NCBI GenBank assembly: GCA_945787635.1
Contig: CALZIK010000071.1
Coordinates: forward strand, 1-64,000
Length of the DNA: 64,000 bases
Source of the DNA: Thermoanaerobaculia bacterium
GTDB lineage: Bacteria > Acidobacteriota > Thermoanaerobaculia > Multivoradales > JAHEKO01
Direction: 5' to 3'
Below are positions 50,806 to 55,116 of the stretch, in pieces (positions within the stretch are counted from its first letter, which is position 1; every line of letters starts with the position of its first letter). The translations under genes were made by a program, and so were the position numbers. The notes beneath the pieces were generated by a model. That model was given only the letters and a program-made list of their open reading frames with translations, was not told the DNA's origin and made no database searches.

Positions 50806-51585
50806 TCACGCGCCCGAGGATTCCCCGGACGGCGAATCGTCGGTTGGAAGCGCCCCTCGTCGCTCGCCCACGGCGTGCTCGAGCCGCCGGCACAAGCCCC
50901 GCAGAATCGCCACTTCGCGCTGCGTCAGGCGCGCCCGGCCGGCGAGCCGTCGGAGGTCTCGCACGACCCCTTCGTAGGTGGAGTCTCTGGCGAATCCGAC
51001 CGTTCGCAGCGCCGAGTCGACGTGATCGAAGAGCCCCGCGACCTCGCCGCCGGTCGCCTCCGGTGAGGCTAGCTCAGCTGGACCGGCGGGATCCACGTTA
51101 CGTCGGCGCGCGGCGAAGAGCTCGTGCGCGACGATCAGGACGGCCTGCGCCAGGTTGAGCGTCGGCTGCTTCGAAGCCGTGGGAATACGGACGATCGTGC
51201 CGCAGAGCGACAGCTCCTCGATGGTGAGCCCCGAGCGCTCCGGTCCGAACACCAGGGCCGTCCGGGTCGAGCAACGGCGGGAGAAGAGATCCGCCAGCTG
51301 CCGAGGCTCGATCACCGGAGTGCGCGTCGATCGCTCGCGGTGCGAGCTGGTTCCGACCACTAGCTGATAGGGAGCGATCGCCTCCGCCACCGAGGCCCGG
51401 CGCTCGGCGGTTTCGAGAATCTCTCGAGCTCCCACGGCACGCGCGAGGGCTCGCTGGCCGATCGCGACCGCCGGTTCGACCAGCACCAGACGTTCGAGGC
51501 CCATGTTGGCCATCGCTCTCGCCACTGCGCCCACGTTGCCCTCCTCGCTGGGGCGCACCAAAATCACTGCCGGCGTCTCCTCCAT
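50806..51585 (-). CDS. trmJ: tRNA/rRNA 2'-O-methyltransferase (TrmJ-like, SPOUT)
   Basis: The 259-residue protein matches TrmJ: ILVRPSEEGNVGAVARAMANMG at the start, a SPOUT knot with VFGPERSGLTIEEL and IPTASKQPTLNLAQAVLI, and a C-terminal helical extension (about 175-250) as in TrmJ. TrmJ methylates the ribose of nucleotide 32 in tRNA. It heads the operon trmJ - KDPG-aldolase-like - hypothetical - gpmI. TAGAGT ends nine bases before the ATG. Confidence 0.92.
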   Translation of the reverse strand: MEETPAVILVRPSEEGNVGAVARAMANMGLERLVLVEPAVAIGQRALARAVGAREILETAERRASVAEAIAPYQLVVGTSSHRERSTRTPVIEPRQLADLFSRRCSTRTALVFGPERSGLTIEELSLCGTIVRIPTASKQPTLNLAQAVLIVAHELFAARRRNVDPAGPAELASPEATGGEVAGLFDHVDSALRTVGFARDSTYEGVVRDLRRLAGRARLTQREVAILRGLCRRLEHAVGERRGALPTDDSPSGESSGA

Positions 51586-51594
51586 CGATGGCGC

Positions 51595-51600
51595 ACTCTA
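51595..51600 (-). promoter_or_regulatory. putative -10 element of trmJ operon
   Basis: TAGAGT on the minus strand, nine bases before ATG 51585, in a near-leaderless arrangement. Confidence 0.4.
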
Positions 51601-51637
51601 TCGCGCGGTCAGGGCTCTTCGGGGGCGTTGGCCGGCT

Positions 51638-51646
51638 TGATAGACT
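51638..51646 (+). promoter_or_regulatory. extended -10 promoter of the small 51.7-kb gene
   Basis: TGATAGACT (TG at 51638, TAGACT at 51641-51646), followed by GGAGG at 51654-51658 and ATG 51672. Confidence 0.45.
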
Positions 51647-51671
51647 GTCGATCGGAGGCGCTACAAACCGC

Positions 51672-51980
51672 ATGATGACAGACAAAGCTCCGCGTTCGTA
51701 TCTGATATTCACCGGCACGGGCCCGATTCTGGTGCTCTCCAGCTACCCCAAGCTCACCGACGGCCGGCTCATCGAGAAGCTCCGCTACAAGGGCATCGAC
51801 AAGTTTCTCGCCTACGAAGTCGACCTTGCTGCCGTCAAAGAGCACTACGGCGTTTCGTTCGAGAACGTGATGGACAACCTGGACGGAGTCGAGGACATCC
51901 GGGTGCTGGACTTCAACGGCCATCAGATTATGGCGAACTTTTCGCTTCAGGAACTCGGCGACCCCATCAAATTCGGTTAG
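51672..51980 (+). CDS. small conserved-looking protein of unknown function
   Basis: The 102-residue soluble protein reads SYLIFTGTGPILVLSSYPKL near its start, then KLRYKGIDKFLAYEVDLAAV, YGVSFENVMDNLDGVEDIRV and LDFNGHQIMANF, with alternating strands and helices typical of a small folded domain. No cysteines, signal peptide or known motif. ATG 51672 (or 51675) is used because GGAGG lies 13-17 bases upstream; the frame extends to 51588 without support. It stands alone, and its stop codon begins a 24-bp imperfect inverted repeat. Confidence 0.75.
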   Translation: MMTDKAPRSYLIFTGTGPILVLSSYPKLTDGRLIEKLRYKGIDKFLAYEVDLAAVKEHYGVSFENVMDNLDGVEDIRVLDFNGHQIMANFSLQELGDPIKFG

Positions 51981-52053
51981 GGTCGCGTCCCGCGCCCACA
52001 TCTACGGCGTTGCAGGGTCGCCTTGTGTCTATGGACGCGGGCCGCGATCCTAA
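51977..52053 (+). repeat. 24-bp imperfect inverted repeat at the end of the small gene
   Basis: Arms 51977-52000 and 52030-52053 pair at 20 of 24 positions plus one G-U wobble, with a 29-base loop. The first arm starts at the stop codon. It could be a transcript 3' end structure, but no T-run follows. Confidence 0.8.
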
Positions 52054-52073
52054 TCGAAATTGATGTGTTGTAG

Positions 52074-52130
52074 CGGTCGACGCCTCTGTCGACCGAATCT
52101 GATAGTGGCGGTCGACGCCCCCGTCGACCG
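52074..52130 (+). repeat. two near-identical stem-loops (CGGTCGAC-N6-GTCGACCG)
   Basis: Copy 1 is at 52074-52095 and copy 2 at 52109-52130. Both have the same perfect 8-bp stem CGGTCGAC/GTCGACCG; the six-base loops differ (GCCTCT versus GCCCCC). They fill the 172-base gap between convergent genes and look like an interspersed palindromic element. Confidence 0.9.
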
Positions 52131-52152
52131 TCTTCCCTCCCGCCTGGTCTTG

Positions 52153-52740
52153 CTACGCCCTGAACTCCAGCAGCGAATACCCCAGCTTCCGGAATAGCCG
52201 GTACAACGTCGGCACCGGGAGGCCCACGACGTTGGTGTAGTTGCCGGTGACGCTCTCGACGAAGAGTGAGCCCAGGCCCTGGATAGCGTAGGAACCCGCC
52301 TTGTCGAGCGGCTCGCCGGTGGCGACGTACCAGGTGATCTCTTCGGTGGTCATCGGAGCGAGGCGGACGCACGAGCGGACCAGCTCGCAGCGGGCGCGGC
52401 CGCCGCCATCGTGAAGAGCAACCGCGGTGAGCACCTCGTGCTCGCGGCCAGCCAGGGTGGCGAGCATTTCGCTCGCGTGCCGGGGGTCGTCGGGTTTGGT
52501 CAGCACCGCTTCGTCGATGACGACGATGGTGTCGGCGGCCACGACCAGCGCGTTCGGTCGGGACCGCGCGCGGGCCTTTTCGCCGGCGACCCGCACAACG
52601 TAGGTCTCGGGAATCTCTCCGGGAAGCCGGCTTTCATCGATCTCGGCGGGCTCGATCTCGAACTCGAGTCCGAGCTCGGAGAGGATGGTCGAGCGCCGCG
52701 GCGATAACGAGGCCAGGACCAGCTGGGGCTGTTTTGCCAC
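52153..52740 (-). CDS. maf: Maf-family nucleoside triphosphate pyrophosphatase
   Basis: The 195-residue protein has the Maf signature LASLSPRRSTILSELGLEFE, ESRLPGEIPETYVVRVAGEKA, VVAADTIVV, and DKAGSYAIQGLGSLFVESVTGNYTNVVGLP. Maf proteins hydrolyse dTTP, UTP or modified nucleotides and can arrest septation when overproduced. GTG 52740 lies six bases after the second VWA gene, so it is the third gene of that operon. Confidence 0.96.
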   Translation of the reverse strand: MAKQPQLVLASLSPRRSTILSELGLEFEIEPAEIDESRLPGEIPETYVVRVAGEKARARSRPNALVVAADTIVVIDEAVLTKPDDPRHASEMLATLAGREHEVLTAVALHDGGGRARCELVRSCVRLAPMTTEEITWYVATGEPLDKAGSYAIQGLGSLFVESVTGNYTNVVGLPVPTLYRLFRKLGYSLLEFRA

Positions 52741-52746
52741 CGGGAT

Positions 52747-55116
52747 CTAAGGGTAGTACCCGGGAGGGTGCTTGACCTCGAGACCCTCGCCCGCAACCTC
52801 GACCCGGATCTGCCGGAACTCGCCTCTCTCTATCTGGGGCGACTGGTAGCCAAGGAGGTACTGGGATCGCAGTTCTCGTTCGATCTGGGCGTAAATTCGA
52901 TCGAGCTTACGCGTGTTCGGGATCGAGAAGCTCTCGCCTCCGGTCTCGTGAGCCAAGCGCCGGAGAATCGATTGAGCCTCGACATCGCGGTTCGAGAGCC
53001 CGAGGCCGATCGTGTAGATCGCGACCCCGGAGCGGCGGGCGTAGTCGAGGGCGTCGTCAAATGAAAACTCGGAAACCGAGTCGGCGCCGTCCGACAACAG
53101 GATCAAGGCGCGCTTTCCGCGCAATCCGGCCATGTAGTAGAGCCCGTAGATGAGCGTGTCGTAGAGCGACGTCTCGCCGCTGGCCTCGATTCCCGCGAGA
53201 CCGTTGTTGAGGTGCGCGAGATTGTTGGTGAGCGAAACGCGCAGCACGGGCGTGTCGCTGAAGACGATGACCGCGGCCCGGTCCTTGGGCTCGAGGACGC
53301 TCTCGAAGAACGAGGCTGCGGCTTTCTCTACTTCTTCGATCTCCTCGATCATCGACTCTGAGCTGTCCAGGACAACGACCGCGTTGATCGGCAGGTTGTC
53401 GACGGTCTCGAACCGCCGGATCTCTTGCGCGACGCCGTCCTCGAAGACGCCGAAATCCTCGCGAGCGAGCCCCTCGATCGCTTCGCCCTGCGGGTCGAGC
53501 ACGCTGGCGTAGATCTCGACGAAGGCGACCTCGATGGCGTCCACGGTGCTCTTGGTGTTGAGGACCACGAGATCCTCCGCGGAGTGACCGTCTTCGAGCA
53601 CCGCGACTGCGCGAAGGTACGCGGATGCCGGGGTCTCGGAGGGATCGAAGGTATGGACGAACGGCGCTTGGTAGAGCCTTGCGACCAGGCGTTCGTTCCA
53701 GAAGAGGTCCACGTGGGAGAGCTCTTCCCCGAGCGGAGTGTCGACTTCGGCATGCACGCTCAAACCGGGCCTGGAGGCGCTTCCGGAGCGGGGGCTGATC
53801 AATCGGATCGCGAATCGGTGCGGCCCCGAGTTGACCGCGATTCGATCGCGGGCGAGTTCGGTGCCCTGCGCGTCGAAGGCGACCGCTTCGACTGTCCGCG
53901 GTCGTGGCATCGGGCCGAGATCGAGCTCCAGGGAAAAGGGTTTTCGGTTCTTGGTCATCACGAGTTGGCCGTCCAGAAAGAAGCGCACCTTGGATACGCT
54001 GGTTCCAGCGGTGATTGTGTCGAATCTCCGGGTTCCGATCAGGTAGCCGTCCGGTGGCGGCAGGATCTTGAAGAGCTGTCGTTCGGGCTTGGCGGGCGAT
54101 GGAGACTCGTCTTTTGCGACGACCGTGGGAACGTCAAACTCCCGCTCAGTCCGGTAGAAGTGGTTGCGCGCGAGGTCGTGGAGCTTGAGCACCATGCGAT
54201 AGTGGCCGGGAGCTAGATGCCGCCGTGCGTTGAGCCGCACGACCTCCTCGCCTGCGGCGGTTCCGGAATAGAGAAACCGAAAGTCATCGACCTCTGCCTC
54301 ACCCAGAACGACGCCGGTGAGGAGCATGGCGCGGGTCGCGGCCGGAGCCGCTCCCGGTTCCGGCTGGTAACCGGGAATACGCAGGTTGAGCTCGACGGCG
54401 GTCTCCTCGCCTACGGCCTCGGGGAAATCAAGGTCCACCGAGGCTTCGAATCGTTCGGCTCCGTCGGGGAGTAGGGTGGTTTCGGTCAGAAACTCATCGA
54501 CCCAGCCGTCATCGCCCGGTTTGAGCTCGGGCGAAGACGCCGTCGTGTTCTCGAGAGCGGCCACCAATTCCGCGCCGCGCTCACATCGGAGGATCTCCTC
54601 CCGTGCACTCCGGCCGCCGGCGTCTTCGAGGAGCGCTTGCCAGTCCCCCGGCTGCCACCGCCTCCACTCGCCGCCGATCGCCACAAAGACTACCGTGCTC
54701 GAGCCGTCTTCGGCGTAGTGCCAAACCTCGTGCTCGAGGACCGGGGTCGGGCAGATGTTGGCGAGCCGGTAGAGCGGTGGACCCACGATCAGGAAGAGCC
54801 GCGCCCGGTCGGAGTCGAAATCGGAGAACTCGCTTCCAGCGAGCAACAGCCGCCGGTTCCACCGCTCGCGTGCCGCCGGTTCCCTGGTTTTCCAGAACCG
54901 CTCCACAAACCGCTCGCGGGTCTTTGGGCTCTCGAGCGCGCGAAAGAACCTCGCCTCCCGCTCCGACAGGAGCAGCTCGATCGGTTCGGTGATCGGTCCG
55001 CCTGGGGCTCGGGTCGCTCCGGCAACGGCTTCGGTCTTCGATTGAGCGACCGTCGCGGACGGCGCGAGCCAGAGCAGCGCGGCGAAAGCGCACGCCGCGG
55101 CGCGAATGAGGTTCAA
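52747..55116 (-). CDS. secreted VWA protein with GWxTD-like N-terminus (second of two paralogues)
   Basis: The 789-residue protein has a signal peptide (about 1-24), a GWxTD-like domain (ELLLSEREARFFRALESPKT, ERFVERFWKTREPAARERWN, LFLIVGPP), repeated Ig-like beta domains (about 200-540) and a C-terminal VWFA domain of the acidobacterial type with MIDAS DSSES (about residue 583), SGETSLYDTLIYGL and LILLSDGADS. It would sit in the periplasm or on the surface and bind ligands through a divalent metal. The start codon is TTG (55116), overlapping the stop of its upstream paralogue by four bases. Confidence 0.9.
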   Translation of the reverse strand: MNLIRAAACAFAALLWLAPSATVAQSKTEAVAGATRAPGGPITEPIELLLSEREARFFRALESPKTRERFVERFWKTREPAARERWNRRLLLAGSEFSDFDSDRARLFLIVGPPLYRLANICPTPVLEHEVWHYAEDGSSTVVFVAIGGEWRRWQPGDWQALLEDAGGRSAREEILRCERGAELVAALENTTASSPELKPGDDGWVDEFLTETTLLPDGAERFEASVDLDFPEAVGEETAVELNLRIPGYQPEPGAAPAATRAMLLTGVVLGEAEVDDFRFLYSGTAAGEEVVRLNARRHLAPGHYRMVLKLHDLARNHFYRTEREFDVPTVVAKDESPSPAKPERQLFKILPPPDGYLIGTRRFDTITAGTSVSKVRFFLDGQLVMTKNRKPFSLELDLGPMPRPRTVEAVAFDAQGTELARDRIAVNSGPHRFAIRLISPRSGSASRPGLSVHAEVDTPLGEELSHVDLFWNERLVARLYQAPFVHTFDPSETPASAYLRAVAVLEDGHSAEDLVVLNTKSTVDAIEVAFVEIYASVLDPQGEAIEGLAREDFGVFEDGVAQEIRRFETVDNLPINAVVVLDSSESMIEEIEEVEKAAASFFESVLEPKDRAAVIVFSDTPVLRVSLTNNLAHLNNGLAGIEASGETSLYDTLIYGLYYMAGLRGKRALILLSDGADSVSEFSFDDALDYARRSGVAIYTIGLGLSNRDVEAQSILRRLAHETGGESFSIPNTRKLDRIYAQIERELRSQYLLGYQSPQIERGEFRQIRVEVAGEGLEVKHPPGYYP

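Follow-up and report, generated by a model that had tools for sequence, protein, structure and literature searches.

Why should three stem-loops, two of them almost identical, be packed between the ends of two convergent genes? The question is raised by positions 51965 to 52130 of the 64-kb stretch of DNA (the window), in which a sequence-only reading had noticed twin palindromes similar in style to REP elements, and had proposed that they belong to a mobile or amplified intergenic family that may also stop transcription from both sides.

Genes around the three hairpins

The convergent arrangement of the flanking genes was as first described. A small conserved gene from the ORF list (51588-51980, + strand), for which an in-frame ATG at 51672 is the likelier start by inspection, faces a gene on the - strand (52153-52740) encoding a Maf-like nucleotide pyrophosphatase (PF02545, 191 bits; TIGR00172, 165 bits). 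The small gene has no Pfam or NCBIfam match, and matches to it were found in 18 of the 21 genomes searched, its own included. Upstream of it, a gene on the - strand (50806-51585) encodes an RNA methylase of the SpoU family (PF00588, 90 bits) that was used as a synteny anchor. Between the small gene and the Maf gene there are 172 bases, and all three hairpins fit into this gap and the 3' end of the small gene, whose last codons lie within a hairpin arm. As a whole, the stretch 51965-52150 (186 nt) folds with z values of -6.6 on the + strand and -7.3 on the - strand, with none of 200 shuffles as stable.

The twin palindromes are copies of a GTAG-tagged REP family

The twin palindromes are real, with CGGTCGAC-N6-GTCGACCG occurring at 52074-52095 around the loop GCCTCT and at 52109-52130 around the loop GCCCCC, 35 bp from start to start. 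The pattern GGTCGAC-N3-12-GTCGACC has two matches in the window, the twins themselves, against 0.01 expected, and none of 100 shuffles contained two. The true repeat unit is longer than noticed earlier, comprising 26 nt that include GTAG or GTGG in front of the stem, and the two copies are 88% identical. REP element 1 (52070-52095, + strand) is built from a GTAG tag, a C, the stem GGTCGAC/GTCGACC, a G and its GCCTCT loop, whereas REP element 2 (52105-52130, + strand) has a GTGG tag, the same stem and the GCCCCC loop; they score 43.9 and 33.4 bits, respectively, with a PWM whose training set includes both. Element 2 lies 35 bp downstream of element 1 in the same orientation, so that the two form a head-to-tail doublet, and the rest of the window holds no copy with a PWM score of at least 12.

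Outside the window the pattern is abundant: 214 exact copies were counted in the 4.36-Mb assembly (203 contigs), compared to a single one for the reversed control pattern, and the element is thus anything but unique to this site. For a closer look at its structure, 60 stretches around listed places were used (62 regions without C196, with two C112 regions merged), which amount to 250,560 bases with 168 exact copies in 76 clusters. Because not every place was listed (for the main loop type, 100 out of 138), these stretches favor contigs up to C126; the total of 214 is complete. Of the 168 exact copies, 146 have GTAG in front of the stem, separated from it by a single base (142 have GTAGC), and none has CTAC in the mirrored position on the opposite side. 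Copies were oriented by this tag, the loop sequence playing no part, and the loops (GTCCCT, GCCCCT, GTCTCT, CTCCGT and variants) follow the orientation of the tag with few exceptions.

The PWM, trained on copies from the same 60 stretches, found 234 copies in them and none when they were reversed. In 18 of the 234, the loop-closing stem pair (12-19) reads G-C rather than C-G, which produces the variant stem GGTCGAG/CTCGACC, and the other seven stem pairs together showed one double change, the palindrome being kept by compensatory change. A contig end is found no farther than 300 bp from 78 of the 234 copies, 24 such ends being involved (on contigs C20, C70, C107, C112 and C122, among others); REP arrays thus seem to interrupt the assembly, and copies are probably more numerous than counted. 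The twin palindromes are two head-to-tail copies of this genome's GTAG-tagged REP family.

Arrangement of the copies and their position between genes

Neighboring copies within 120 bp of each other are head-to-tail in 102 of 143 pairs, most commonly at spacings of 34-36, 39, 43 and 44 bp, and the window doublet belongs to this same-way, 35-bp kind. For inverted pairs, the spacing peaks are 34 and 62 bp; on contig C70 (L139) such pairs alternate, forming units of 96 bp.

Genes around the copies were called with a home-made codon-usage gene finder. Leaving aside 72 copies at stretch edges, 142 of the other 162 are intergenic and 20 lie in predicted CDS; 18 of these 20 fall in ORFs no longer than 447 nt, and 17 of the 18 copies are in ORFs that hold at least two. 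The distinct intergenic sites (n = 57) comprise 30 codirectional, 20 convergent and 7 divergent gaps. Convergent gaps are in excess with respect to the gene pairs of the window (20/57 vs 6/61; Fisher test, p-value: 0.0015), a baseline that is one 64-kb window including this site, the only convergent one among its 17 gaps of at least 40 bp. In the codirectional gaps, the REP is nearer to the upstream stop than to the next start in 16 of 30, which is no clear bias, and its orientation shows no clear preference with respect to the genes (18 opposite, 10 same, 2 mixed). The comparison with gene 3' ends that the sequence-only reading had suggested thus places the sampled copies mostly between genes, with more convergent gaps than in the baseline.

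A transposase gene flanked by REPs

Two Y1 transposases over the Pfam cut-off are encoded in this genome, on contigs C112 and C97. The C112 protein (L016/L303, 157 aa) scores 92.4 bits with NF047646 (cut-off 80), is over the cut-off for PF01797, matches the structure of E. coli TnpA-REP (4er8, E 2.5e-6), and carries the motifs DHLH, WQRSFFDHVVR and YIVNNP. REPs flank its gene on both sides, inverted and within about 45 bp; the nearest one downstream has a degenerate tag and the next a full GTAG. Inverted REPs flanking a cognate RAYT were seen at this locus and at L304. As far as the available parts of the sources describe RAYT/TnpA-REP proteins (Nunvar et al. 2010, PMC2817692; PMC6006769; 4er8), the C112 RAYT is like them in its HuH motif, its WQ...D-H...R residues, its Y-x-x-x-N-P motif and its two inverted flanking REPs. 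The region described for GTAG recognition, in the available text of PMC6006769, comprises W94, Q95, E100 (replaced by D in certain subclasses), H101 and R104, and the spacing of W, Q, D, H and R in the C112 RAYT fits these residues. The same text names Acidobacteria for RAYT Class 3, whose Y motif is another one and whose structures are atypical.

Among the 80 matches listed for the C112 RAYT, the best ones, with 57-60% identity, are two RAYTs of one Acidobacteria MAG; the other 78 share at most 44% identity with it and are mostly proteobacterial. A plasmid search with the RAYT yielded 7 records, each below 60% identity. The genome studied here and an Acidobacteria MAG belong to the same genus, and the two closest RAYT loci of the congener G002 are letter-identical to parts of contigs of the Acidobacteria bacterium isolate B78T1B8; on this ground the organism studied here is assigned to Acidobacteriota. 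One G002 RAYT (its contig C97), 57% identical to the C112 RAYT, has the same REP family on both sides, with the stems GGTCGAC and GGTCGAG. Beside its second RAYT (its contig C41, locus L034), GTAG-tagged REPs are found on one side only, with the stems CGGTCGTG, CGGTCGCG and CGGTCGGC (L034:1241-1354). The different stems beside these paralogous RAYTs suggest that stems are RAYT-specific.

The genome studied here carries, then, both a REP and the transposase gene by which it is probably spread. Its other Y1 transposase (contig C97, L017/L309) was discarded as a REP mover, as it is over the Pfam cut-off but below that of NF047646 and has no REP nearby. This second gene is bordered by repeated GGTGGCACCTC-like motifs (L017, about 1070-1120 and 2445-2500). 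These borders are perhaps of the inverted-repeat type for which Acidobacteria have been named: in the available part of PMC3733652, TIRYTs are RAYT-like transposases flanked by long inverted repeats.

REPs in related genomes and age of the doublet

Counted by the stem pattern, with the tag not part of the count, 128 copies were found in G009, a genome of the same family that is 86% complete. It encodes two proteins matching NF047646, neither of them with a GGTCGAC REP nearby and one, of 295 aa, of another type. The congener G001 has 15 stem copies and three places matching NF047646, none with a GGTCGAC REP nearby. These two cases indicate that the GGTCGAC stem is not always paired with a flanked RAYT. 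Of the 58 other genomes of the order that were searched, 55 have 0-6 stem matches, about as many as the controls in some.

The order of small gene, methylase gene and Maf gene is kept in both congeners, G001 and G002. In 17 relatives, these two included, the small-gene locus holds no REP at the PWM threshold, and none was seen in the aligned orthologous gaps of G001 and G002. Since both orthologous gaps are without REPs, the doublet is, most simply, newer than the split from the congeners; its loss in both of them is a possible alternative to its gain in the lineage studied here. The congeners have diverged (53-59% identity in the small protein), which makes the insertion point unreadable to the base.

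The first stem-loop belongs to another family

The remaining stem-loop had been described as a 24-bp inverted repeat beginning at the stop codon of the small gene. A stem-loop is indeed present, but that size was too small: the fold pairs 51965-52065 (+ strand) in a long imperfect hairpin of 101 nt and 38 pairs, with the stop codon (51978-51980) inside its left arm. One family for all three stem-loops was discarded, because in blastn searches of its own genome this hairpin finds only itself, with no second copy, and because it matches the model of another family.

This model, R1, matches the window at 51977-52054 (40.5 bits, E 2e-7), with 53 central model positions replaced by a single base and the CGTACT tip missing. 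R1 was built from 27 hairpins taken from 69 candidates (some sites on both strands), which were picked for the CGTACT tip and, mostly, for GCGTT and GCCTTG-type boxes; the constancy of tip and boxes in the alignment is partly by construction, since both were used for picking. Independently of this picking, R1 finds the window hairpin, whose tip is missing. In the alignment of the 27 copies, 21 of 29 predicted pairs have at least one double compensatory change. Members of the family have asymmetric boxes, CTGCnGCGTT on the left and CCTTGCATC on the right, and a CGTACT-AGTACG tip; other copies are found at L149:1953-2081 (with a second tip at 2131-2147), L197:1371-1501 and L283-L290. A larger hairpin is located at the orthologous stop codon of G002, and its left half and tip at that of G001; the boxes common to these two and to hairpins elsewhere are ATCTGCnGCGTT (left), CGTACTnnnAGTACGCC (tip) and GCCTTGCATCT (right). 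Among 17 orthologous small-gene loci, only those of G001 and G002 match R1. The hairpin at 51965-52065 is an eroded, shrunken member of a separate long-hairpin family and not a REP.

R1 has at least 11 matches in this genome and at least 103 in G003, both lower bounds with 114 candidates scored per genome, and among 30 genomes of the order, 21, this one included, contain matches. A further 29 genomes were selected from the sources of the 80 RAYT matches, and 3 of them have weaker matches: a Desulfobulbaceae MAG accounts for 11, and the two others, both betaproteobacterial MAGs, for 1 and 2. The six copies viewed from these three fold into long hairpins whose boxes are similar and whose arms differ, and contamination of the MAGs is a possible source. 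Most of 36 copies from G023 and G002 are intergenic (31, in 9 convergent, 19 codirectional and 3 divergent gaps), with 2 in predicted CDS and 3 at edges. No Rfam family was found at gathering score for five long-hairpin loci, and the seven Rfam matches of positions 51900-52250 are each below their own gathering score, five of them to miRNA models. Literature searches with 12- to 18-letter words from the hairpin or the REP found no work on bacterial repeats, as judged by titles.

ERIC-type elements are long intergenic imperfect palindromes of more than 100 nt, dispersed between genes. By their description, the long hairpins are like them in being longer than 100 nt, imperfect, and dispersed between genes, and differ from them in the asymmetric boxes and the CGTACT-AGTACG tip. 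We tentatively propose, at somewhat less than even chances, that the first stem-loop represents a family of long hairpin elements, about 130-250 nt in size, that crosses phyla and is as yet undescribed, in which two short asymmetric boxes and, in the acidobacterial copies, the short tip hairpin are kept, and the long outer arms differ between subfamilies yet remain paired, here and in one congener enclosing the stop codon of the preceding gene. Such elements would be mobile or gene-conversion-spread 3'-end hairpins of Acidobacteriota, some Proteobacteria and Desulfobacterota, beside which REPs would settle later.

Alternative explanations

The transcriptional role included in the sequence-only reading could be taken as the whole explanation, with the three hairpins acting as a bidirectional terminator, or as a stabilizer of RNA 3' ends, that is kept by selection between the convergent genes, their status as repeats being incidental. 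The convergent placement here and at 20 of the 57 REP sites is in line with this, as are the very stable folds on both strands and the presence of a long hairpin at the corresponding stop codon of G002 and of part of one at that of G001. On the other hand, a scan for terminator-like sites (a GC hairpin followed by a T-run, with loops of 3-8) found none in 51600-52800, where 0.6 are expected from shuffles, the REPs are absent from the orthologous gap of both congeners, and 7 of the 57 sites are divergent. One-sided conservation of the tag would also be superfluous in a terminator, and we regard this explanation as unlikely.

Far less probable is a REPIN or BIME nature of the doublet, in which REPs form inverted pairs and move as one unit. 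Inverted pairs at 34 and 62 bp do alternate in the 96-bp units at L139, but both window copies are on the + strand, no other copy reaches a PWM score of 12 in the window, and the shared orientation rules this reading out for the doublet, which differs from those units in being head-to-tail.

That the palindromes arose by chance from the composition of a GC-rich genome, to which the GC-rich stem and the near-control counts in some of the 55 low-count genomes of the order could point, is refuted by the control pattern (214 copies vs 1), the shuffles (0/100) and the one-sided tag.

A known type of system and a proposed origin for the doublet

In the available part of PMC3733652 (Di Nocera et al. 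2013), GTAG-REPs are 20-40 bp palindromes of high copy number with an unpaired GTAG at one end, located mostly between convergent or codirectional genes, and their RAYT genes are flanked by REPs. The REPs studied here are like this super-family in palindrome, one-end tag, copy number, placement and flanked RAYT, a likeness of general features. To liken the twin elements to REPs in style only, as was done at first, is therefore an understatement, since the elements fit GTAG-REPs in their tag, size and copy number, in their location outside genes, in the compensatory changes of their stems and in flanking a RAYT gene: they are a GTAG-REP family with its RAYT, which is a known type of system. A difference lies in the arrangement, as GTAG families are, in the same part of PMC3733652, mostly without the head-to-tail dominance seen in this genome (102/143 pairs). 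No description of a REP/RAYT system in Acidobacteriota was found among the matches listed in the literature, in the parts available and with species-level tables outside this scope.

Taken as a whole, the locus is very probably explained by a GTAG-REP doublet that was spread by the flanked RAYT, became tandem through local duplication and was added beside an older hairpin. By analogy with known RAYTs, the transposase would bind the GTAG tag and the hairpin as single-stranded DNA, and would cleave and re-ligate next to them, thereby spreading REPs into intergenic gaps, where selection may tolerate the copies. Tandem doublets could arise by local duplication of the 34-44 bp unit, through the RAYT itself or by replication slippage. 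The doublet lies just outside the long hairpin, and the two congeners carry this hairpin, complete or partial, at the corresponding stop codon without REPs; the comparison suggests that in this lineage the REPs joined an older 3'-end hairpin. Any effect of the REPs on transcript ends would be secondary.

These results place a REP/RAYT system in Acidobacteriota, with its tag, its flanked transposase and stems that differ between paralogous RAYTs. The congener MAG, in which two RAYTs neighbor REPs with a common GTAG tag and different stems, offers a natural pair for asking which part of a RAYT recognizes the stem, and the head-to-tail arrays bear on the origin of tandem REP doublets. The long hairpin is the less understood part of the locus, and its family may deserve description as an intergenic element class of its own.
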